Source of the DNA: Chloroflexota bacterium
GTDB lineage: Bacteria; Chloroflexota; Anaerolineae; Anaerolineales; Villigracilaceae
Assembly: GCA_016223135.1 (NCBI GenBank)
Contig: JACRPQ010000004.1
Location: 868,001 to 932,000, forward strand
Direction of reading: 5' to 3'
Length of the DNA stretch: 64,000 bases
Shown here: positions 26,969 to 49,555 of the stretch, piece after piece
Numbering within the stretch: the stretch's first letter is position 1
How the letters are laid out: every line of letters starts with the position of its first letter
Translations under genes and position numbers: made by a program
Notes under the pieces: generated by a model
Databases searched by the model: none
Told to the model about the DNA's origin: nothing
Seen by the model: only the letters and a program-made list of their open reading frames with translations

Positions 26969-27622
26969 ATGCTTACCCTTGAGTTTCACTGTCACACCAT
27001 TTTCTCGCAAGATTCTCTGCTGACTCCGCAAAAACTGATTGAAATCTGCCGCCGCAGGGGCATTGACCGGGTGGTGATCACTGACCACAACACGATTGCG
27101 GGAGCGCTGGCGGCTCAAAAATTGGACCCGCAGCGGGTCATTGTGGGGGAGGAGATTATGACGACGCAGGGGGAACTTCTTGCCGCGTTTGTGAGCGAGG
27201 AGGTGCCGCCGTCTCTCTCACCGCAGGAGACGATTCGCCGCTTGAGGGAACAGGGAGCGTTTATCAGTGTGTCGCATCCCTTTGACCGTCTGCGGAGGGG
27301 CGCCTGGCGGGAGGATGACTTGCTCGAAATCCTGCCGCAGGTGGATGCCATCGAGGTGTTCAACTCGCGGTGCATGGATCCGCGCTTCAACAGCGAGGCG
27401 CAGGCATTTGCCCGGCGGCATGGTGTGACAGGGACAGTCGGGTCGGACGCGCACGCGGCGTTTGAGGTGGGGCGAAGCGTCCTTTTGGTGGAGCCGTTCG
27501 AGGGTCCGGATGGGATGCGGAAAGTCCTGCCCTCGGCGCTTCCGAAGACCAGATTGTCGCCGTTGTGGGTGCATTTCCTGTCCCGTTATGCAGTTCTTTA
27601 TAAGGCGTGGATGGAGTCTTGA
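26969..27622 (+). CDS. PHP-domain phosphoesterase
   Basis: The 217-residue protein has the four PHP motifs: FHCHT (H7, H9), VITDHNT, SHPFDRLRRG and GSDAHA. These bind two or three metals to hydrolyse phosphate esters. Members of this size often act on small phosphorylated molecules or oligoribonucleotides; the substrate is unknown. The SHPFDRL segment is normal for the family and not a repeat insertion. Confidence 0.88.
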   Translation: MLTLEFHCHTIFSQDSLLTPQKLIEICRRRGIDRVVITDHNTIAGALAAQKLDPQRVIVGEEIMTTQGELLAAFVSEEVPPSLSPQETIRRLREQGAFISVSHPFDRLRRGAWREDDLLEILPQVDAIEVFNSRCMDPRFNSEAQAFARRHGVTGTVGSDAHAAFEVGRSVLLVEPFEGPDGMRKVLPSALPKTRLSPLWVHFLSRYAVLYKAWMES

Positions 27623-27647
27623 CAGTGTTTTTCAGGCGTGATAATCT
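27619..27647 (+). promoter_or_regulatory. Candidate promoter of the cold-shock gene
   Basis: TTGACA (27619-27624) and TAATCT (27642-27647) with 17-bp spacing overlap the stop of the PHP gene. The resulting leader of about 70 nt holds a strong hairpin. Confidence 0.6.
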
Positions 27648-27659
27648 TGCAGGCATCGT

Positions 27660-27702
27660 GCCCGCCTTGCGGCGCGATGGCGCCAGGCGCGGGCAAAATT
27701 TT
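27660..27702 (+). promoter_or_regulatory. GC-rich leader hairpin with following T-run, upstream of csp
   Basis: GCCCGC...GGCGC pairs with GGCGCC...GCGGGC (27660-27694) and is followed by AAAATTTTTT. The shape is that of a terminator or attenuator placed 20 bp before the cold-shock ribosome site. It may give cold- or structure-dependent expression, which is inference. Confidence 0.5.
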
Positions 27703-27723
27703 TTCTCAGCAGGAGATTGAAAG

Positions 27724-27936
27724 ATGTCAGAACGTATTGTCGGAACCGTGAAGTGGTTCAATGCCACGAAGGGTTATGGTTTCATCGGTCGCGAGGACGG
27801 CGAGGATGTGTTCGTGCACTTCAGCGCCATTCAGACGGATGGATACCGCAAGTTGGTCGCCGACCAGAAAGTGGAGTTTTCTGTGGAGGAAGGTCCCAAG
27901 GGGTTGCAAGCCGCCAACGTGGTACCCCTCTCGTAA
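27724..27936 (+). CDS. Cold-shock domain protein
   Basis: The 70-residue single-domain protein binds single-stranded nucleic acid. RNP1 is KGYGFIG and RNP2 is VFVHFSAI. The C-terminal part ([14 protein letters not shown]) is standard. CAGGAG precedes the ATG. A leader hairpin lies upstream and an intrinsic terminator follows, so it is monocistronic. Confidence 0.95.
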
Positions 27937-27968
27937 GACCTAGCCTACGGCTTAAGTTTTGCGAACCG

Positions 27969-28001
27969 ACAGAGTCGCTGTGAAGCGGCTCTGTTTTTTT
28001 T
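27969..28001 (+). terminator. Intrinsic terminator of the cold-shock gene
   Basis: ACAGAGTCGCT and AGCGGCTCTGT pair around GTGA, followed by an uninterrupted T-run. Confidence 0.9.
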
Positions 28002-28209: not shown

Positions 28210-28476
28210 ATGACATTCTTTGGACTTCTCCGACGTGATGCAGATCGGCATACGGTTCTCGCTTCGGGACATGTAGTGCCTGATTCCGCGCGTTGTGTGC
28301 AGTGCGGAATTTGTTCGTACAATTGCCCTGTCGGGATTGATGTGCGCGCCCATGCTTGGCGGGGCGAACCCGTCGTGCATAGTCAGTGCCTGACGTGCGG
28401 CGAGTGTGTGGCGCGCTGTCCGCGCGGGGTGTTGAGGTTCGAAAAGACCGATTTGTTTGCAGGGAGGAAATCATGA
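28210..28476 (+). CDS. 2x[4Fe-4S] ferredoxin-like protein
   Basis: The 88-residue protein has two cluster motifs, CVQCGICSYNCPVG and CLTCGECVARCPRG, each CxxCxxCxxxCP. It would carry electrons in the cytoplasm. The start has no clear ribosome site. The stop overlaps the start of the FAD oxidoreductase (ATGA), so the two are tightly coupled. It is likely the soluble electron donor or acceptor of the membrane cytochrome system encoded next. Confidence 0.88.
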   Translation: MTFFGLLRRDADRHTVLASGHVVPDSARCVQCGICSYNCPVGIDVRAHAWRGEPVVHSQCLTCGECVARCPRGVLRFEKTDLFAGRKS

Positions 28477-29771
28477 GGTATGTGATTATCGGTTCGGGCG
28501 TGGCGGGCATCGCCGCGATTGAAGCGATCCGTTCGCTGGATCGGGAGGGGGAGGTCGTTATGATTGGCGATGACCCGTATGGCTTTTATTCGCGTCCCGG
28601 TCTGGCGTATTATTTGACCGGCGAATTGCATGATAAGGCGCTCTTCCCCCGCACTGCTGCGGCGTATCGTAAGATGAATTTTCGTTACGTCAAGGACAGG
28701 GTGCAAAAAATTCTGCGCGAAGCGCACACTCTTGAAATGGAGGGCGGAACTTCGCTCTCTTATGACCGTTTGTTGTTGGCAGTGGGCGCGCAGGCAGCGC
28801 CAATGAAAGCGCCCGGCGCCGACCTGGATGGCGTTCTGAAACTCGATCATCTGGAAGATGCGAAAAAGATTTTGAAGCACGCCCGGCGCGGCAGGACAGC
28901 GGTGGTGGTGGGCGGCGGCATTACCGCGCTTGAAATGGTGGAAGGATTTCTTGCGCGCGGCGTGAGGGTTCACTATTTATTGCGCGGGGACCGCTACTGG
29001 AGCAATGTGCTGGATGAGCAGGAATCGCGCATTGTCGAACACCGCCTTCAGGAGGATGGAGTGCGGCTGCACTTCCACTCGGAGATTGCGGAAATTCTCG
29101 GCAAAAAAGGACGCGTCAGCGGCGTTCGCTTGGTGGACGGAAAGACGCTTGCCTGCGACATGGTGGCGTATGCAATTGGAGTTCGTCCGCGGCTCGAGCT
29201 GGCGAAGCAGTGCGGGTTGGAGATTGATCGAGGCATTTTGGTCAACGAGTATTTGCAGACCAACGATCCTGCCATTTATGCGGCTGGAGATGTGGCGCAG
29301 GTCTATGATCCCGCCACGGGACAATCCGTTTTGGATAGTTTGTGGGGACCGGCGCGTCAGCAGGGATACGCGGCTGGGTTGAACATGGGGGGAAAACGCA
29401 CCGCCTACCGCAAGGCGGTTTCGTTCAATGTGACCCGCCTGGCGGGATTGACCACCACGATTATCGGCATGGTGGGAAGCGGACGCGATGACGATTTGGT
29501 CGGCATTGCGCGTGGCGATAGCGAAACCTGGCGTCACCTGCCGGAAGCCATCGTTGCGCAGACGGGGTTCGAAGTGAACCGCTTGCGGCTGCTGGTGGGC
29601 GAGCGGACGCTGCTTGGCGCGGTGGTGATGGGAGACCAGAAACTTTCCTTCCCGCTTGAAAAAATCATTTCGGACGGGGTGGATATTTCGCCGATACGGG
29701 AGAAACTGCTGACGCCGCAGGCAAGAGTGGGCGATGTGATTGCAGATTTTTGGCTGGAAAAGAACGCTTAA
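28473..29771 (+). CDS. NAD(P)/FAD-dependent oxidoreductase
   Basis: The 432-residue flavoprotein has an N-terminal FAD-binding GSGVAGIAAIEAI, a second dinucleotide fold VVVGGGITALEMVEG (NAD(P)H) and the FAD-contacting YAAGDVAQ. The architecture matches the nitrite-reductase/rubredoxin-reductase-type FAD_NAD reductases. AGGGAGGAAATC precedes ATG 28473. It probably passes electrons between NAD(P)H and the ferredoxin or cytochrome b; direction is unknown. Confidence 0.9.
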   Translation: MRYVIIGSGVAGIAAIEAIRSLDREGEVVMIGDDPYGFYSRPGLAYYLTGELHDKALFPRTAAAYRKMNFRYVKDRVQKILREAHTLEMEGGTSLSYDRLLLAVGAQAAPMKAPGADLDGVLKLDHLEDAKKILKHARRGRTAVVVGGGITALEMVEGFLARGVRVHYLLRGDRYWSNVLDEQESRIVEHRLQEDGVRLHFHSEIAEILGKKGRVSGVRLVDGKTLACDMVAYAIGVRPRLELAKQCGLEIDRGILVNEYLQTNDPAIYAAGDVAQVYDPATGQSVLDSLWGPARQQGYAAGLNMGGKRTAYRKAVSFNVTRLAGLTTTIIGMVGSGRDDDLVGIARGDSETWRHLPEAIVAQTGFEVNRLRLLVGERTLLGAVVMGDQKLSFPLEKIISDGVDISPIREKLLTPQARVGDVIADFWLEKNA

Positions 29772-29782
29772 CAGGAGGTCTC

Positions 29783-30337
29783 ATGCTGCGAGGCAACAAG
29801 GAACTTTGGGTGGCTTTTCTGACCATGCTATTGATTACGGCGATCTATGGGGTGGTGGTGATGTACACACGCGAAATTCCGCCGGCGAGCGAGGTATTCG
29901 GTCACGGCATGGGGATTGTCGGTTTTATTCTCATGCTGATGACAGAGACTCTGTACAGTCTGCGCAAACGCAGCCGCAGCGTGCGCTGGGGGAGAATGTC
30001 TTTTTGGCTCAAGTTTCATATTTTCACCGGCTTGGTGGGTCCTTACATGGTTTTGCTGCATTCCTCCTGGAAGTTCAACGGCCTTGCCGGTGCAACGACC
30101 TTATTGACAATGATTATTGTGGTGAGCGGCTTTGTCGGTCGTTATATTTTCACCCGCATTCCGCGCACCATGGACGGCTTGGAGATTGAAGGGACACTTT
30201 CACAGGAGGCGCTCAAACAAGCGCGGCGTTTGCTGGCGCTCTGGCACGCCGTTCACATTCCGATTGGTATGGCGTTGTTTGTCTCCGCATTTGTTCACAT
30301 TGGCGCGGCTTTATATTATGCGACGTTCTTAAAGTGA
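29783..30337 (+). CDS. Membrane b-type cytochrome-like protein
   Basis: The 184-residue protein has four to five hydrophobic helices. Paired histidines suited to heme b are seen in LKFHIFTG with LLHSSW, and in LWHAVHIP with FVHIGA. The layout resembles cytochrome b561/ferric-reductase-like proteins. AGGAGG precedes ATG 29783, 11 bp after the flavoprotein. It is the expected membrane link between the flavoprotein/ferredoxin pair and the multiheme cytochromes. Heme ligation is inferred. Confidence 0.7.
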   Translation: MLRGNKELWVAFLTMLLITAIYGVVVMYTREIPPASEVFGHGMGIVGFILMLMTETLYSLRKRSRSVRWGRMSFWLKFHIFTGLVGPYMVLLHSSWKFNGLAGATTLLTMIIVVSGFVGRYIFTRIPRTMDGLEIEGTLSQEALKQARRLLALWHAVHIPIGMALFVSAFVHIGAALYYATFLK

Positions 30338-30351
30338 CCAGAGAGAGTGTT

Positions 30352-30443
30352 TAACCACGGATGAACACAGATAAATTGGATTCAAAAGCGATTGCGTCGC
30401 GAGTTTCATCAACAATGTTCATCCGTCTTTATCGGTGGTGAAT
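30352..30443. repeat. Palindromic element AACCACGGATGAAC...GTTCATCCGT..GGTGGT
   Basis: TTAACCACGGATGAACA near 30352 and GTTCATCCGTCTTTATCGGTGGTGAA (30416-30441, arms inexact) form an imperfect long hairpin in the gap before the first multiheme gene. A single copy of this form is seen here; it resembles family C in layout, not in sequence. Confidence 0.6.
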
Positions 30444-30468
30444 TGCCTAAAGGAAAGGAGTGAGGAGA

Positions 30469-32664
30469 ATGCGAAGCGCCCGCCTGGGTTGTTTTACGTT
30501 TACTGGTATTTTTGCCGCCCTGATCACGGCGCTTGCCATTGTGGGCTTTGCCGTTGCCAGCGGTGGGCAAATGTTCAGCCCGGGAGCATTGAATGCCGTT
30601 GCCGGAGATGTGCTGGGCGGCGTTCATTCTCACGCGGAAATTGCCGGCGCTTGCAGCGCCTGTCATGTTGCTCCTTGGGAGGCGCAGACGATGCAGGATC
30701 GCTGCGTGGTCTGCCATCAGGATGTCGCGCTCCAGATGCAGGATGTGATGACCCCGCATGGACGCATGTACGCCATTGACCCGGCAGTGGAGTGCCGCGC
30801 CTGTCACCCCGAACACCGCGGCGAGACGGCGTCGCTCACCGAAATCGAAGGGTGGAAGTACCCGCACCAACTCTCCAGCTATTTCTTGACGGCGCATCAA
30901 TTCAAGGCGGAAAACGACCCGTTCCAATGTGCGGATTGCCATGGGAACGATGTAACAACGTTCGACGAAAATACCTGTAAGACGTGTCACGGTCAGCGCG
31001 ATCAGGCGTTCATGGTGGATCATCTCCTTGCCTATGGAGAGTCGTGCCTGAACTGTCACAACGGCTACGACAGCATGGTCACCGATTTCACGCATGACGC
31101 TTTCTCATTCAAATTGACCGGTCAACATGCTCAAGCGGCATGTGTGGATTGCCATCGCGGCGCTCACAGCCTTGTGGAATTTAGAATGACCGGGCAGGAT
31201 TGCGCCTCCTGCCATCTGGCTGACGATCCGCATGAAGGATTGCTGGGGAATGATTGCGCCTCCTGCCATACGCCCGAGGGCTGGCGCCCCTCCCAATTCG
31301 ATCACACCCGATCAGCCTTCAAACTCGGAGAAGCGCACGCCAAGGTTGCCTGTCAGGCATGTCACAGCGACCTTCTCTTCAAAGGCACGCCTTCGGATTG
31401 TTTCTCCTGTCATGCTCAGGATGACCCCCATGAAGGGGCGCTGGGGACGAACTGCGCCTCCTGCCACAAGGCGACCACCTGGCAGGATGTCACGTTTGAC
31501 CATTCGCAAACGACATTTGCGCTGGTGGGCGGGCATGTGAATGTTGCCTGCTCCAAATGCCATACCGATTTGACTTTCAAGAATACGCCCACCGCCTGTG
31601 TGTCCTGTCATGTGGATGTTCACCAGGGGCAGATGGGCATGGACTGCGCCAAGTGTCATAATCCCTTCGACTGGAAGGATGTGCATTTCGATCACAGCCA
31701 GACGGGTTTCCAATTGGTTGGCGCTCACCAGGGAGCCGCCTGCTCCTCCTGCCATGCCAACGGACGATTCAAGGGGACGCCTTCCAACTGTTTTGCCTGT
31801 CACTCTGCGGATGACAAGCATAACGGTCAATTCGGCACGGATTGTGCCGCCTGCCATAACCCGTCCTCCTGGAAGGACGTGAATTTCGACCACAGCCGCA
31901 CGGGCTTCCCGCTTTCCGGCGCGCACGGCGGTGTGCCGTGTACCGCCTGCCATGTGAACGGCAAGTACAAAGGTACACCGCGAGAGTGCGTGGCTTGTCA
32001 CGCCGCCGACGACGCTCATAACGGACAGTTCGGCACGGTCTGTTCCGCTTGTCATAACACCAACAGTTGGAAGAACGCCACCTTCGATCACAGCAAGACG
32101 GGTTTCCCGCTCACTGGCTCGCATTCGGGCGTGGCGTGCAAGAATTGTCATTCCAATGGTGTGTTCAAAGGGACGCCATCGAACTGTTATGCCTGTCACT
32201 CCGGTCGGGATAAGCACAACGGGCAGTTCGGCACGGATTGCGGCTCGTGCCATAAGCCCACCCGCTGGTCGGACGTGAACTTTAACCACAACAATACCGG
32301 CTTCCCTCTCAACGGCAAGCACGCGGGAGTACAATGCAAGGCATGTCATTCCAACGGCTATAAAGGCACGCCTTCCAACTGTTATGCCTGTCATGCCTCG
32401 AAGGACAAACACAATGGTCAATTCGGCACCGATTGCGGTTCCTGTCACTCGCCCAATGGATGGGGCAACGCTTCCTTCAACCACAACCAGACCGGTTTCC
32501 CGCTCGAAGGGAAACATGCCAAAGTGGAATGCAAGAAGTGTCACCAAAACGGAGTATATAAAGGCACACCCAGCCAGTGTGTGGCATGTCATCAAGATAA
32601 GCACAACGGCGAGAAAGGCACCGATTGTGCGGCATGCCACTCGCCAAAGGGCTGGGGCAACTGA
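30469..32664 (+). CDS. Giant multiheme c-type cytochrome, 30 CXXCH motifs
   Basis: The 731-residue protein has one N-terminal hydrophobic helix (about residues 8-30) that acts as signal or membrane anchor. I count 30 CXXCH heme-binding motifs. The first six lie in an N-terminal module of about 200 residues. The rest form eight consecutive units of about 65 residues, three hemes each, of pattern FDHSxTGFPLxGxH..CxxCH..KGTPxxCxxCH..HNGQFGTDCxxCH. Extra conserved histidines (FDH, GxH, DxH) could be distal ligands. GAGGAG precedes ATG 30469. It would form a long exported heme wire. Confidence 0.93.
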   Translation: MRSARLGCFTFTGIFAALITALAIVGFAVASGGQMFSPGALNAVAGDVLGGVHSHAEIAGACSACHVAPWEAQTMQDRCVVCHQDVALQMQDVMTPHGRMYAIDPAVECRACHPEHRGETASLTEIEGWKYPHQLSSYFLTAHQFKAENDPFQCADCHGNDVTTFDENTCKTCHGQRDQAFMVDHLLAYGESCLNCHNGYDSMVTDFTHDAFSFKLTGQHAQAACVDCHRGAHSLVEFRMTGQDCASCHLADDPHEGLLGNDCASCHTPEGWRPSQFDHTRSAFKLGEAHAKVACQACHSDLLFKGTPSDCFSCHAQDDPHEGALGTNCASCHKATTWQDVTFDHSQTTFALVGGHVNVACSKCHTDLTFKNTPTACVSCHVDVHQGQMGMDCAKCHNPFDWKDVHFDHSQTGFQLVGAHQGAACSSCHANGRFKGTPSNCFACHSADDKHNGQFGTDCAACHNPSSWKDVNFDHSRTGFPLSGAHGGVPCTACHVNGKYKGTPRECVACHAADDAHNGQFGTVCSACHNTNSWKNATFDHSKTGFPLTGSHSGVACKNCHSNGVFKGTPSNCYACHSGRDKHNGQFGTDCGSCHKPTRWSDVNFNHNNTGFPLNGKHAGVQCKACHSNGYKGTPSNCYACHASKDKHNGQFGTDCGSCHSPNGWGNASFNHNQTGFPLEGKHAKVECKKCHQNGVYKGTPSQCVACHQDKHNGEKGTDCAACHSPKGWGN

Positions 32665-32699
32665 CCTGTAGAGGCTTCCAATCGCTCTGCTGCAAGGAT

Positions 32700-32815
32700 A
32701 GGCTGGCGCTCGCTTTCAAATGGGACGCTGAAAAACGCAGATAAACGCAGAAAAAAACAACTTAAATCAGCGTTCATCTGCGTCCCAAAACAAAAGTGTC
32801 GGGTGGCTAGACTCT
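32700..32815 (-). repeat. Dispersed repeat family C, copy 1
   Basis: Read on the minus strand it contains TTTTGGGACGCAGATGAACG and ends GCGTTTTTCAGCGTCCCA, giving terminal arms TGGGACGC/GCGTCCCA. Other copies lie at 35973-36160 and 49465-49555. It separates the two multiheme genes. Confidence 0.85.
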
Positions 32816-32861
32816 GTTTACACAAAACAACTTCAAACCATAAATCAGCCTGGGAGGGCAA

Positions 32862-34247
32862 ATGCGAACCACAAGTCGTTTAGGTTGTTTGTCTGGCGTA
32901 GGGATGATTGCCGCGCTTATCACCACGCTGGTGATTGCCGGCTATGCCTACGCGCGAGGCGGAGTGCTGTATAACCCCGGCCCGTTGAACGCGCAAAGCG
33001 GAGAGACGCTCGGCGGCGTCACTTCCCACGCCGAGACGGACGGTAACTGCAAAGCCTGTCACACCGCGCCATGGGAATCAGCCCGCATGGAGGACCGCTG
33101 TGTGACCTGCCATGAAGGGATTGCCGTACAAATGAAGGATGCGGCAACCCTGCACGGCTCGCTGTTGATCGACCAACCGGATCTGAGCTGCCGCTTTTGC
33201 CACCCCGAACATCGCGGTCCCAACGCCAGCCTGACGGAGTTGAACGGCGTCTCCTTCCCGCATGAGGCGGTGGGATTCTCCTTGAAAGGGCACCAGTTCA
33301 AGGTCACGCGCGAAGCGTTCGTTTGTTCCGATTGTCATGCCGACGACATTTCCAGATTCGATCCGCAAACTTGCGACACCTGTCACCGTCAAACCGACCT
33401 CGGCTTCATGACGGCGCACGTCCTGTCGTTTGGGTCGTCATGCCTCGCTTGCCATGACGGCGTGGACAGCCTCGTGAGCAGTTTCAATCATGACGCCTTT
33501 CCCTTCAAATTGAGCGGAAAACACGCCGGCGTAAACTGCGTCAAATGCCATGTGGACGCCCGCCGCCTGGAAGACTTTGCCGCCGCCCCGCAGGATTGCT
33601 ATGCCTGTCATTCTGCCGACGAGCCGCATGAAGGACGCTTCGGGCGGGACTGCGCCGCCTGTCACTCGGTGGACGGCTGGACGCCCGCCTTGTTTGACCA
33701 CAATCTCTCCGCCTTCAAATTGGAAGGCGAACACGCGGAAGTGCGCTGTGAACAATGCCATGTAAATAACGTGTACAAAGGCACACCCTCCGACTGCTAT
33801 TCCTGTCACCGCCAGGATGACGAACACAACGGTCAATTCGGCACGGACTGCGCCGCCTGCCATAACCCCTCGGATTGGGAGGATGCCACCTTTGACCACA
33901 GCCGCAGCAACTTCCCGCTGACCGGCGCGCATGTGAACGTGGCTTGCGAGCGCTGTCATACCGGCGGGCAGTTCAAGGGGCTGAACGCCGCGTGCGTGAG
34001 TTGTCACAGCGATCCGCAGTTCCATGCCGGCATGTTTGGTTTGGATTGCGCCGCGTGCCATTCCACCGCGAATTGGTTTGCGCGCTATAACGGTCCGCAT
34101 CCGGGCATCGCCGACGAAGGCGGCAGTGGTGTCAACCACGGCGGTACATCCTGCCGCACTTGTCACACACAGAACCTGCGTACTGCAACCTGCACCGCTT
34201 GCCACAGCAGCAATAACCCTGGTGGCGAAGGCGGCGGTGACGATTAA
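32862..34247 (+). CDS. Multiheme c-type cytochrome, 17 CXXCH motifs
   Basis: The 461-residue protein is a paralogue of the upstream cytochrome. It has the same N-terminal helix (LGCLSGVGMIAALITTLVIAG) and the same six-heme N-terminal module, then three of the 65-residue three-heme units and two extra CXXCH motifs near the C terminus, 17 in all. The tail after the last heme is Gly-rich. GGGAGGG precedes the ATG. Together with the 30-heme protein it likely faces outward and takes electrons from the cytochrome b. Acceptors are unknown. Confidence 0.92.
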   Translation: MRTTSRLGCLSGVGMIAALITTLVIAGYAYARGGVLYNPGPLNAQSGETLGGVTSHAETDGNCKACHTAPWESARMEDRCVTCHEGIAVQMKDAATLHGSLLIDQPDLSCRFCHPEHRGPNASLTELNGVSFPHEAVGFSLKGHQFKVTREAFVCSDCHADDISRFDPQTCDTCHRQTDLGFMTAHVLSFGSSCLACHDGVDSLVSSFNHDAFPFKLSGKHAGVNCVKCHVDARRLEDFAAAPQDCYACHSADEPHEGRFGRDCAACHSVDGWTPALFDHNLSAFKLEGEHAEVRCEQCHVNNVYKGTPSDCYSCHRQDDEHNGQFGTDCAACHNPSDWEDATFDHSRSNFPLTGAHVNVACERCHTGGQFKGLNAACVSCHSDPQFHAGMFGLDCAACHSTANWFARYNGPHPGIADEGGSGVNHGGTSCRTCHTQNLRTATCTACHSSNNPGGEGGGDD

Positions 34248-34263
34248 CACTGACGATACCGAT

Positions 34264-35988
34264 ATGAATACCATCACCTTCTCTTCTCGTCGTTCGCCCG
34301 TCTATAGCCGCAATGGCATTGTTGCCACGTCCCAGCCGCTTGCCACCGCCGCCGGGCTTGAAATCCTTGCCAGGGGAGGCAATGCCGCCGACGCCGCCGT
34401 CGCTGCGGGCGCCGCGCTCAACGTGACCGAACCCACCTCCACCGGGATTGGCGGGGACATGTTTGCCCTCTACTACTCTGCGGATACGGGACAAGTGACC
34501 GCCCTCAACGGTTCAGGACGCGCCCCCTCCGCCCTGACGCTTGACCGGCTAAAGAACGAAGGACTCCTCGCTGAAGCCTTGCCTCCGTTCCATCCGCATA
34601 CGGTCACTGTCCCTGGCGCGTGCGCGGGCTGGTGTGACCTCATTGCCAGGCATGGCTCGCTTTCCCTCTCCGAAATTCTTGCACCCGCGATTCGACTCGC
34701 CGACGAAGGCTTTCCCGTCGCGCCGCTCACGGCTTACTATTGGGCGCGCGGCGCAGCGCGTCAACTCGCCTCTGCCCCGAACGGACACGAACTCACCATC
34801 AACGGACGTGCGCCGAAGGCAGGCGAAATCTTCCGCAACCCCGGCTTGGCGCGGACGTTCAAACTCGTGGCGGAGCGGGGCGCTGCCGGGTTTTACCAAG
34901 GTCCAATTGCAGAAGCAATTGTCGGCGTATTGAAAGAAGCGGGCGGCTGTATGACGATGGACGACCTCGCCTCGCACGTATCCACGTGGGAGGCGCCCAT
35001 CTCGGTTGATTATCGCGGGCTGCGCGTGTATGAATGTCCGCCCAACGGACAGGGCATCACCGCGCTCATCGCCTTGAATCTGCTCGAAGGCTTTGACCTT
35101 GCTTCTCTGGAGGCAACCTCTCCCGAAAAAATGCACCTGATGATTGAAGCGCTGCGGCTCGCCTTTGCCGATGCGCGCTGGTACGTTGCCGACCCACAGT
35201 TTTTCAATGTGCCTGTGAGGGAGTTGTTGTCGAAAGAGTATGCCGCCGAACGCCGCAAATTGATCGACCCGCAGCGCGCCACTGTTGACCCAAAACGCGG
35301 CGCGCCCGTTGCCTCTTCCAATACCGTCTATCTCAGCGTGGTGGATAAATGGGGCAATGCCTGCTCGTTCATCAACAGCAACTACATGGGCTTTGGCACG
35401 GGCATTGTCCCCAAAGGCTGGGGCTTCACCTTGCAAAATCGCGGACACAACTTCAGCCTCGACCCCAATCATCCCAACTGCCTCGCCCCGCGCAAACGAC
35501 CGTATCACACCATCATCCCTGCGATGGTGACTCGCCTCCCCTCTCCCGACGATGGTCGAGTAGGCGGCGGGTTTCGATACGCAGAGAACGCTACTCAACC
35601 ATCGCCGCCGTATCGAGACCAGGGCGAATCATTGTACGCCTCCTACGGCGTCATGGGCGGATTCATGCAGCCGCAGGGGCATGTCCAAGTCCTTTCTGCC
35701 CTGTACGATGCGGGGTTCGACCCTCAATCAGCGCTCGACCTGCCGCGCTTTTGCATTGACGTGGACGAAGCCGGCGGGCGCGTTGCCATCGAGGAGTGCA
35801 TGCCAAAAGCGACACTGGACGCCCTGCAAAAGATGGGACATCCCGTGTATGAAGTGACAGGGTATGAGCGCGCGTTGTTTGGGCGCGGTCAGGTCATTCT
35901 GCGTGATCCAGAGACGGGCGTGCTGTGCGGCGGGAGCGATCCGCGTGCGGATGGGTGCGCGATGACCCTTGTTTTGGGACGCAGATGA
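34264..35988 (+). CDS. ggt: Gamma-glutamyltransferase family protein with in-frame repeat insert
   Basis: The 574-residue protein is an Ntn hydrolase. The predicted nucleophile is T354 in SSNTVYLSVVD. Upstream N-domain motifs (GGNAADAAVAAG, GIGGDMF, PPNGQGITALI) and the C-terminal GVMGGFMQPQGHVQV are intact. It has no signal peptide. Residues about 430-453 are encoded by a 70-bp palindromic element (35551-35620), seemingly extra relative to the family. ATG 34264 lies 16 bp after the cytochrome stop. Its role in glutathione or gamma-glutamyl metabolism is presumed; it may be unrelated to the redox operon. Confidence 0.88.
   Translation: MNTITFSSRRSPVYSRNGIVATSQPLATAAGLEILARGGNAADAAVAAGAALNVTEPTSTGIGGDMFALYYSADTGQVTALNGSGRAPSALTLDRLKNEGLLAEALPPFHPHTVTVPGACAGWCDLIARHGSLSLSEILAPAIRLADEGFPVAPLTAYYWARGAARQLASAPNGHELTINGRAPKAGEIFRNPGLARTFKLVAERGAAGFYQGPIAEAIVGVLKEAGGCMTMDDLASHVSTWEAPISVDYRGLRVYECPPNGQGITALIALNLLEGFDLASLEATSPEKMHLMIEALRLAFADARWYVADPQFFNVPVRELLSKEYAAERRKLIDPQRATVDPKRGAPVASSNTVYLSVVDKWGNACSFINSNYMGFGTGIVPKGWGFTLQNRGHNFSLDPNHPNCLAPRKRPYHTIIPAMVTRLPSPDDGRVGGGFRYAENATQPSPPYRDQGESLYASYGVMGGFMQPQGHVQVLSALYDAGFDPQSALDLPRFCIDVDEAGGRVAIEECMPKATLDALQKMGHPVYEVTGYERALFGRGQVILRDPETGVLCGGSDPRADGCAMTLVLGRR
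35551..35620 (+). repeat. In-frame palindromic element inside ggt
   Basis: GATGGTCGAGTAG pairs with CTACTCAACCATC, and GGTTTCGATACG with CGTATCGAGACC, so arms are interlaced. The motif GGTTGAGTAG...GTATCGAAACC is a widespread REP-like sequence in other phyla. The reading frame is kept. Confidence 0.85.
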
Positions 35989-36160
35989 ACGCTGATTTAC
36001 GCTGATTTAACTCACCTTACGCGGTAGCGCGAGATTTATCTCGCGTTTTCGGGCGACATTTATGCCGCCCTACGAAGGAACTGCGTAAGGTGAGTGATTT
36101 AAGTTTTTTTCTACGTTTATCTGCGTTTTTCAGCGTCCCATTTGAAACGGTCAGGTCGCT
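35973..36160 (+). repeat. Dispersed repeat family C, copy 2, split by a MITE
   Basis: TTTTGGGACGCAGATGAACG starts the element inside the last codons of ggt and GTTTTTCAGCGTCCCA ends it. The middle is interrupted by an 84-bp insertion at 36011-36094. A 3' fragment of family A (TTATCCCGAATT, 36167-36190) follows. No gene lies in the 35989-36229 gap. Confidence 0.88.
36011..36094 (+). mobile_element. Miniature inverted-repeat element (84 bp)
   Basis: Perfect 12-bp terminal repeats CTCACCTTACGC and GCGTAAGGTGAG bound the element. TGATTTAA (36003-36010) is repeated directly after it (36095-36102) as an 8-bp target duplication. Inside, GCGCGAGATTTATCTCGCG makes a second hairpin. It has no coding capacity. 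Confidence 0.9.
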
Positions 36161-49464: not shown

Positions 49465-49555
49465 CCCGACACTTTTGTTTTGGGACGCAGATGAACGCTG
49501 ATTTACGCTGAGTTAAGTTGTTTTTCAGCGTCCCACTTGAAACTGTCAGGTCGCT
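49465..49555 (+). repeat. Dispersed repeat family C, copy 3
   Basis: Starts at CCACCCGACACTTTTG, continues TTTTGGGACGCAGATGAACG, and ends TCAGCGTCCCACTTG. It shares flanks (CACCCGACACTTTTG and TGTCAGGTCGCT) with the other copies, so the unit is larger than the palindrome. Confidence 0.85.

Follow-up and report, generated by a model that had tools for sequence, protein, structure and literature searches.

We analysed a stretch of 64,000 nucleotides from a Chloroflexota bacterium of the family Villigracilaceae (NCBI GenBank assembly GCA_016223135.1, contig JACRPQ010000004.1, positions 868,001 to 932,000 of the forward strand), referred to here as the window. It contains five consecutive genes on one strand that encode a ferredoxin, an FAD/NAD(P)H oxidoreductase (the flavoprotein), a small membrane cytochrome b (CYB) and two multiheme cytochromes with 30 and 17 CxxCH heme-binding motifs (MHC1 and MHC2; Table 1). 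This composition, proposed earlier in a sequence-only reading of the same DNA, was confirmed by the coordinates and motif counts, as were the gaps reported there, from the ATGA overlap and the 11 bp between the first three genes to the 131 bp (122 bp with the GTG start) between CYB and MHC1 and the 197 bp between MHC1 and MHC2. The set is real, widespread and functionally coherent, and it probably forms a transmembrane electron conduit.

Table 1. Genes of the operon and associated sequence elements (positions in the window)
Feature	Position	Strand	Properties
Ferredoxin	28210–28476	+	88 aa; 8 Cys in two CxxCxxCxxxCP sets; Pfam Fer4_7, 1.3e-10
FAD/NAD(P)H oxidoreductase (flavoprotein)	28473–29771	+	432 aa; ATGA overlap with the ferredoxin gene; PF07992, 8.7e-57
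Small membrane cytochrome b (CYB)	29783–30337	+	184 aa; 11 bp gap after the flavoprotein gene; five helices
MHC1, 30-heme cytochrome	30469 (ATG) or 30460 (GTG) to 32664	+	30 CxxCH
MHC2, 17-heme cytochrome	32862–34247	+	461 aa; 17 CxxCH; core multiheme protein of the family
Terminator-like hairpin with T tail	27968–27995	+	12-pair stem, 6 GC; downstream of the cold-shock gene; consensus match only
Imperfect palindrome, CYB–MHC1 gap	30352–30437		16 nt arms 88% and 10 nt arms 90% complementary
Imperfect palindrome, MHC1–MHC2 gap	32721–32787		22 nt arms 82% complementary

To determine the distribution of the set, CYB was searched against 400 Chloroflexota genomes, including the window's own, with E ≤ 1e-20 taken as a close match, and the N-terminal 253 residues of MHC2 were likewise searched against 400 genomes; the two draws were treated as identical because their handles and tallies agree. 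CYB matches were found in 59 of the 400 genomes, 25 of them close, whereas the MHC2 N domain had matches in 26, namely the same 25 and G005, which has a weak match (E 7.3e-5) and no CYB. The CYB and MHC genes are adjacent in 25/25 genomes with a close CYB match (the ferredoxin of one of these, G387, was read from the equal contig L147); in G311 (L093) the full set is present in a different order. A second sample came from a CYB profile search of named genomes and consists of the best 79 loci of 271 relatives; it overlaps the genome set, so that the counts are not additive. Omitting L183, which is largely the same stretch as L182, leaves 78 loci. L182/L183 show two facing sets on one contig, possibly an assembly fold-back, and the inverted second set of L182 was also left uncounted. 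With F for ferredoxin, R for flavoprotein, B for cytochrome b and m for a multiheme gene, the order is FRBm in 45 loci, FRBmm in 17, FRBmmm in two, and FFRBmmm, a double FRBm and FRmBm (with an additional multiheme gene inside the set) in one each, while the remaining 11 are cut by the sequence end (five Bm, four RBm, one RBmm and one FRB). At least two complete multiheme genes are present in 22 of the 78 loci. Thus, synteny in related genomes, whose absence the sequence-only reading had named as grounds for abandoning its proposal, is extensive. The relatives are recorded as Chloroflexota taxa, some under doubtful genus names such as Herpetosiphon and Brevefilum, both of which we take to belong to Chloroflexota. 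In family f25, the set, with a 15-heme protein, was found in five of the six genomes, the sixth being cut.

MHC1 and MHC2 are the only open frames of the window (at least 40 amino acids) with two or more CxxCH motifs. Chance clustering of these motifs was ruled out, as 2000 shuffles of each protein gave on average 0.43 and 0.18 CxxCH, with a maximum of 4, versus the 30 and 17 observed. The two proteins are homologous (54% over residues 4–384) and have the same plan, an N-terminal hydrophobic stretch (helix 12–32 in the predicted model of MHC2) and an 8-heme N domain followed by c7-type units. PF14522 (Cytochrome c7; cut-off 24.8) matched MHC1 with 117.8 bits in seven stretches and MHC2 with 68.2 bits in five. 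The seven units of MHC1 are 64–66 amino acids long, neighbouring ones are 48–71% identical, and each has three hemes plus another three histidines, with an extra CxxCH at the end of the final unit. The N domain contains eight spare histidines, each kept in 50–52 of the 52 aligned sequences.

Among the 97 multiheme proteins that are complete, have at least eight CxxCH motifs and lie on the plus strand, the number of hemes ranges from 11 to 47 at ∼ 23 residues per heme; outside this set, an open-ended frame of L078 has 56. Divided by three, these heme counts leave a remainder of zero in 45 proteins, two in 51 and one in a single protein (kinship of the rows ignored). Spare histidines number 1.0 to 1.35 per heme, so that all 97 proteins have at least 1.0. 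In a tree of 99 N domains, the window's two included, the 16 rows labelled '23 hemes or more' require nine changes, at least five of them forced by well-supported branches, which implies repeated gain or loss of the long versions; MHC1 falls in a group with two 30-heme proteins and one of 41 hemes. The 47 hemes of the window operon, regarded as exceptional in the sequence-only reading, turned out not to be so: one relative has 21 + 47 heme motifs in a single operon (L119:10566–15898), another locus has 18 + 41, and a third has 21 + 36 + 28 in one operon (L181:10634–17286), its last protein being cut by the contig end.

Exactly one cysteine lies outside the heme motifs in 83 of the 97 proteins, and among the N termini listed it is almost always that of an LGC-type motif. 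This motif, seen in 85/97, consists of a short leader and Gly-Cys before the anchor helix (C9 of MHC2, window 32886–32888), which is too close to the N terminus to be a lipobox. The glycine ahead of the hydrophobic stretch raised the idea of a class III (pilin-like) leader, which was not adopted, as no Glu5-like residue occurs in the listed starts; prepilin peptidase matches are present in the genome.

A direct sequence search of the PDB with MHC1 returned no solved relative at E ≤ 0.01, and a profile of the multiheme family matched a sixteen-heme cytochrome (7.1e-7) and a nine-heme cytochrome (5e-5). OmcS, OmcE and OmcZ are absent from the molecule names of the 28 profile matches; the MHC2 model is too poor for a fold comparison, and its fold search was uninformative (predicted local distance difference test, pLDDT, of 68.6). 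No operon protein matched PF02335 (nitrite reductase) at E ≤ 0.1, and there is no porin among the five operon genes, the rest of the genome not having been searched for porins. The claim that no known marker can be recognized here holds for the NCBIfam models, with the HmcA hexadecaheme (NF045713; 34.7 and 28.8 bits versus 400) and the DmsE-type decaheme (TIGR03508; 22.6 and 20.4 bits versus 192.2) rejected far below their cut-offs. It needs a qualification for PF22113 (MtrC/MtrF domains II/IV; cut-off 30), with which MHC1 scores 37 bits over residues 168–348 (MHC2, 25.1 bits). We consider this match generic because a different, 8-heme protein encoded in this genome scores 42 bits with the same model.

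In CYB, H41, H79, H93, H158 and H172 are conserved in all 52 aligned sequences and H155 in 51. The pairs H79/H93 and H158/H172 each lie 14 residues apart on two helices (52/52), which is the classical layout of two-heme transmembrane cytochromes and suggests that CYB binds two hemes b across the membrane. The structure model (pLDDT 89) has helices at residues 6–29, 38–63, 72–93, 100–124 and 141–181. Lys/Arg average 5.6 in the loop joining helices 2 and 3 and 0.90 and 0.96 in the two loops of the opposite side, while the loop joining helices 4 and 5 combines 3.1 Lys/Arg with 3.6 acidic residues; from this distribution, H79 and H158/H155 are predicted to lie towards the cytoplasm, and H93, H172 and H41 towards the outer face. 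The score of CYB with PF01292 (prokaryotic cytochrome b561), 20.1 bits, is under the cut-off of 30.1, although 21 of 23 members match at E ≤ 0.5. Sequence comparison with the PDB gave no match, and Foldseek returned 84 matches of the CYB model at E ≤ 10, none of them at E ≤ 0.001. In a fold comparison (VIA list) the top entry was the superoxide oxidase of Escherichia coli with a Z of 8.6, which by the tool's own note is within noise for helical bundles, and b6f, NOX and NarI appeared amid unrelated bundles such as talin. Because two-heme cytochromes stand side by side with unrelated helical bundles in this list, our reading of CYB leans on the histidines and not on Z.

All eight cysteines of the ferredoxin, which carries two predicted [4Fe-4S] clusters, are kept in 69/69 aligned sequences, the window's included. 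The flavoprotein belongs to the pyridine nucleotide-disulfide oxidoreductase superfamily (PF07992; 193.2 bits, cut-off 26.1) and has no redox-active cysteine pair. CoA-disulfide reductase and other disulfide reductases were rejected, as there is a single conserved cysteine column (C228, 93% of the 69) and the CoA-disulfide model scores far below its cut-off. The PadH model gives 1.4e-53, yet its 182 bits fall short of the cut-off of 475. The best solved relative is 8c0z_E (5.8e-39), which we take to be the AorC-type flavin subunit of the Aromatoleum aldehyde oxidoreductase. In two alignments, solved relatives have a glutamate where the second beta strand of the nucleotide fold ends; the window protein has Leu170 at this position, followed by Arg171. 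The arginine is present in 69/69 flavoproteins, with L, M, I or F at position 170 in all of them, and also in 16/16 more distant loci where this segment could be aligned, L098, L099, L100 and L102 among them. In glutathione reductase, a hydrophobic residue followed by arginine at the equivalent position marks the use of NADPH, and from this resemblance the flavoprotein probably prefers NADPH. The flavoprotein frame of L082 has a stop in the 170–171 segment, and that of L088 is fragmented.

L098, L099, L100 and L102 are from other families of the phylum and encode the flavoprotein and a cytochrome b of 320–334 amino acids, with no multiheme gene alongside. Ferredoxin lies between the two in L099 and L100, giving a flavoprotein–ferredoxin–CYB trio, and with a weaker match in L102. 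In L101:6152–9700 a CYB relative and a 7-heme cytochrome gene adjoin another kind of NAD(P)H reductase, of the FAD/NAD/2Fe-2S type, so that the b-type unit appears to be exchangeable between NAD(P)H donors.

The conserved gene order, the two-heme pattern of CYB, the spare histidine for every heme and the N-terminal membrane helix support an electron conduit, as the sequence-only reading had suggested, and we regard such a conduit as the probable function of the operon. The flavoprotein would accept hydride from NAD(P)H, probably NADPH, and split it into single electrons, which would pass to the two clusters of the ferredoxin and then, through contacts that we infer, to the inner-side heme of CYB (H79 with H158 or H155), to its outer-side heme (H93 with H172, or H41) and to the 8-heme N domain of a multiheme cytochrome whose single N-terminal helix would anchor it in the membrane. 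From there, the tandem triheme units would carry the electrons outward to an extracellular acceptor, across the wall of what is probably a monoderm cell. How long this outer wire is, and how much it can carry, would be set in each lineage by gain or loss of triheme units and by gene duplication. Outward flow is favoured since the redox gradient and the electrical one would both drive it. A broader proposal, which we make tentatively and would not put at even odds, is that this NADPH-fed, quinone-independent extracellular wire is old in Chloroflexota, is shared with phototrophs, has had its reach through a wall without an outer membrane tuned three hemes at a time, over a range of 11 to 47 or more per chain, and acquired its large versions several times independently.

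Several observations weigh against the conduit. The full quartet is absent from some of the 25 genomes with a close CYB match: in G011 (L094) neither ferredoxin nor flavoprotein was seen beside the CYB–MHC pair, and in G219 (L088) there is no ferredoxin match and both the flavoprotein and the MHC are in pieces. In the window's own family, CYB was found in 13 of the 24 listed genomes and is missing from the other 11. The family matches of CYB are all below cut-off and its fold matches are mixed; its invariant H41 and nearly invariant H155 have no assigned heme role and could serve a quinone. H426, the partner histidine for one C-terminal heme of MHC2, is present in just 14/52 sequences, and the model of MHC2 is poor overall, with a predicted template modelling score (pTM) of 0.35 besides the low pLDDT. 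Finally, the presence of the set in phototrophs (family f25) leaves room for inward flow.

The genome also encodes other electron-transfer proteins. There are three matches each for cytochrome c assembly and for COX1-type proteins, and one protein is above the cut-off of PF13435 (31.5 versus 20.8 bits). In L192:7751–11954, a 7-heme protein is fused to a b561 domain (PF01292, 77.6 bits) and stands beside an 8-heme protein (PF11783); from its sequence, this fusion is possibly a separate quinol-type entry to multiheme cytochromes. L193, L194 and L195 comprise 10- and 9-heme proteins, a nitrite reductase (PF02335) accompanied by an NrfH-like protein (PF03264), and a pentaheme gene next to one of the molybdopterin family, a pair that, we assume, resembles ACIII. 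With COX1-type, c552 nitrite reductase, ACIII-like and b561-fusion genes, the organism looks like a respiring one, in which the operon could act as a valve that releases excess reductant or could support an alternative respiration.

Electrons might instead enter the cell, from ferrous iron, minerals or partner cells through the multiheme proteins and CYB to NADPH. Such wires are in principle reversible, and Ardenticatena, also of this phylum, shows both anodic and cathodic current in the accessible part of the report on it (PMC5808234). Photosynthetic reaction-centre genes were found in 4/4 tested genomes of f25, a family in which the operon occurs, and in 0/7 of the others tested. With 7 of the 11 tested genomes, our own included, having no reaction-centre match, and with NADP+ reduction from c-hemes against the membrane potential expected to be costly unless the hemes have a very low potential, we consider an inward wire unlikely.

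An exchange of electrons between CYB and menaquinone, making the operon a quinol:multiheme oxidoreductase like CbcL or CymA with flavoprotein and ferredoxin as a side input, seems to us quite unlikely. It would fit the weak likeness of CYB to PF01292 in 21/23 members, the two histidines free of a heme role and the top score of the E. coli superoxide oxidase, an enzyme that exchanges electrons with quinone; that score, however, is within the noise noted above. Ferredoxin and flavoprotein, which are not needed for quinol, are kept in every one of the 78 loci with room for them, and even the MHC-free trios of L099 and L100 keep them, although L088 and L094 are without one or both. The multiheme–b561 fusion of L192 could moreover be the quinol entry of this genome. 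A cell-wall reductase or electron store for a soluble substrate, as opposed to a wire to an external solid, is the least probable of these alternatives and we consider it very doubtful: parts of the multiheme profile match the periplasmic sixteen-heme (7.1e-7) and nine-heme (5e-5) cytochromes and the second ligand of one C-terminal heme may not be fixed, but a histidine available for each heme in 97/97 proteins suits electron transfer rather than catalysis, and a heme number of 11–47 in homologues is unlike an enzyme with a fixed site.

The hairpin at 27968–27995 is the likely 5′ boundary of the operon, judging from the consensus match; in the region, 12 such terminator-like sites were found versus 8.4 expected. 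Upstream of it (26969–27936) are genes for a PHP-domain protein (PF02811) and a cold-shock protein (PF00313); a 547-residue protein of the same neighbourhood has no Pfam match at 1e-5. The cold-shock gene is kept in 38 of the 59 loci with room upstream and the PHP gene in 26 of 55; a local oddity or recent import is unlikely because the set recurs 3′ of the cold-shock gene in these 38/59 loci. In G332, a genome of the window's genus that has no CYB, the 547-residue, PHP and cold-shock genes keep their positions; the sequence breaks off 1.2 kb beyond, and no match to any of the five operon proteins was found up to there. The multiheme gene of relatives starts at most 45 bases past CYB in 74 of 76 measured cases, versus 131 in the window, and both longer gaps of the window operon may for this reason be later insertions. 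The palindromic motif of the MHC1–MHC2 gap has 7 matches in the window, three of them in that gap, versus 0.07 expected; further copies lie at 35978–36137 and 49484–49501.

Judging from record titles and general knowledge, Chloroflexota metagenome-assembled genomes with this set come from sludge, anammox systems, sediments and groundwater. The set predicts an electron input by way of NADPH and ferredoxin and not of quinol, it offers a natural series of wires with graded heme number for tests of length versus conduction, and the small CYB together with the multiheme N domain is a usable marker for genome annotation.

Searches of an open-access library, which mostly lacks subscription journals, gave no paper that we recognized as a description of the operon. 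The suggestion that the system is new thus stands in part: the operon as such is apparently undescribed, while its parts and the general idea, including large multiheme cytochromes of Anaerolineales (PMC7399161), are already known. The accessible text of that paper describes several such cytochromes whose homologues vary in heme number, finds no porin complex and no Gram-negative envelope in Anaerolineales, and proposes that motifs were gained or lost in pairs or in multiples. Those cytochromes are from the same order and share with ours the variation in heme number and, as far as the operon genes go, the lack of a porin complex, a likeness by description only. The same text gives no flavoprotein, ferredoxin, cytochrome b partner or triheme unit, and the word 'operon' is absent from it; as far as the accessible sources go, the published large Chloroflexota multiheme cytochromes come without a cytoplasmic partner, and the four-gene set offers one. 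Chloroflexota are also listed among the groups rich in secreted multiheme proteins in the accessible part of PMC11495043, and that of PMC5808234 describes Ardenticatena as electrode-active, its richest cytochrome having seven hemes. The wall-crossing cytochromes of Thermincola and Carboxydothermus share the multiheme route across a monoderm wall, but their membrane step is assigned to putative quinol-oxidizing cytochromes in the available text of PMC7829351. CbcL/MtoC, ImcH and CymA likewise provide a membrane entry that feeds multiheme cytochromes, whereas here the cytochrome b is a separate gene with cytoplasmic input and there is no fused b/c architecture in the operon; in a survey, its accessible part lists for Chloroflexi 0 CymA, 0 CbcL/MtoC/MtrH and 1 ImcH (PMC6295460).

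For the flavoprotein, the nearest likenesses are 8c0z_E of Aromatoleum and PadH, the latter below cut-off; the Aromatoleum aldehyde oxidoreductase uses NAD according to the accessible text of PMC10413684. The glutamate of its flavin subunit is replaced here by Leu170 and the adjacent Arg171. The NADPH oxidases and ferric reductases (NOX/FRE) share with the window operon the path from NAD(P)H through flavin and two b-hemes to the outer side. The NOX histidine pattern, a spacing of 14 on two helices, is the one found in CYB. Membership in NOX/FRE by a fused flavin–NADPH domain was rejected, as CYB, with its 184 amino acids, stands alone without such a domain; the operon differs further in its separate flavoprotein of another family (PF07992), the added ferredoxin and the multiheme acceptor. 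GSU1996 of Geobacter is a poly-c7 cytochrome with tandem triheme units in one chain. MHC1 shares these c7-type units with proteins of the GSU1996 type, from which it differs in the N-terminal anchor and 8-heme N domain that precede them and in the tie of its gene to the flavoprotein–ferredoxin–CYB set.

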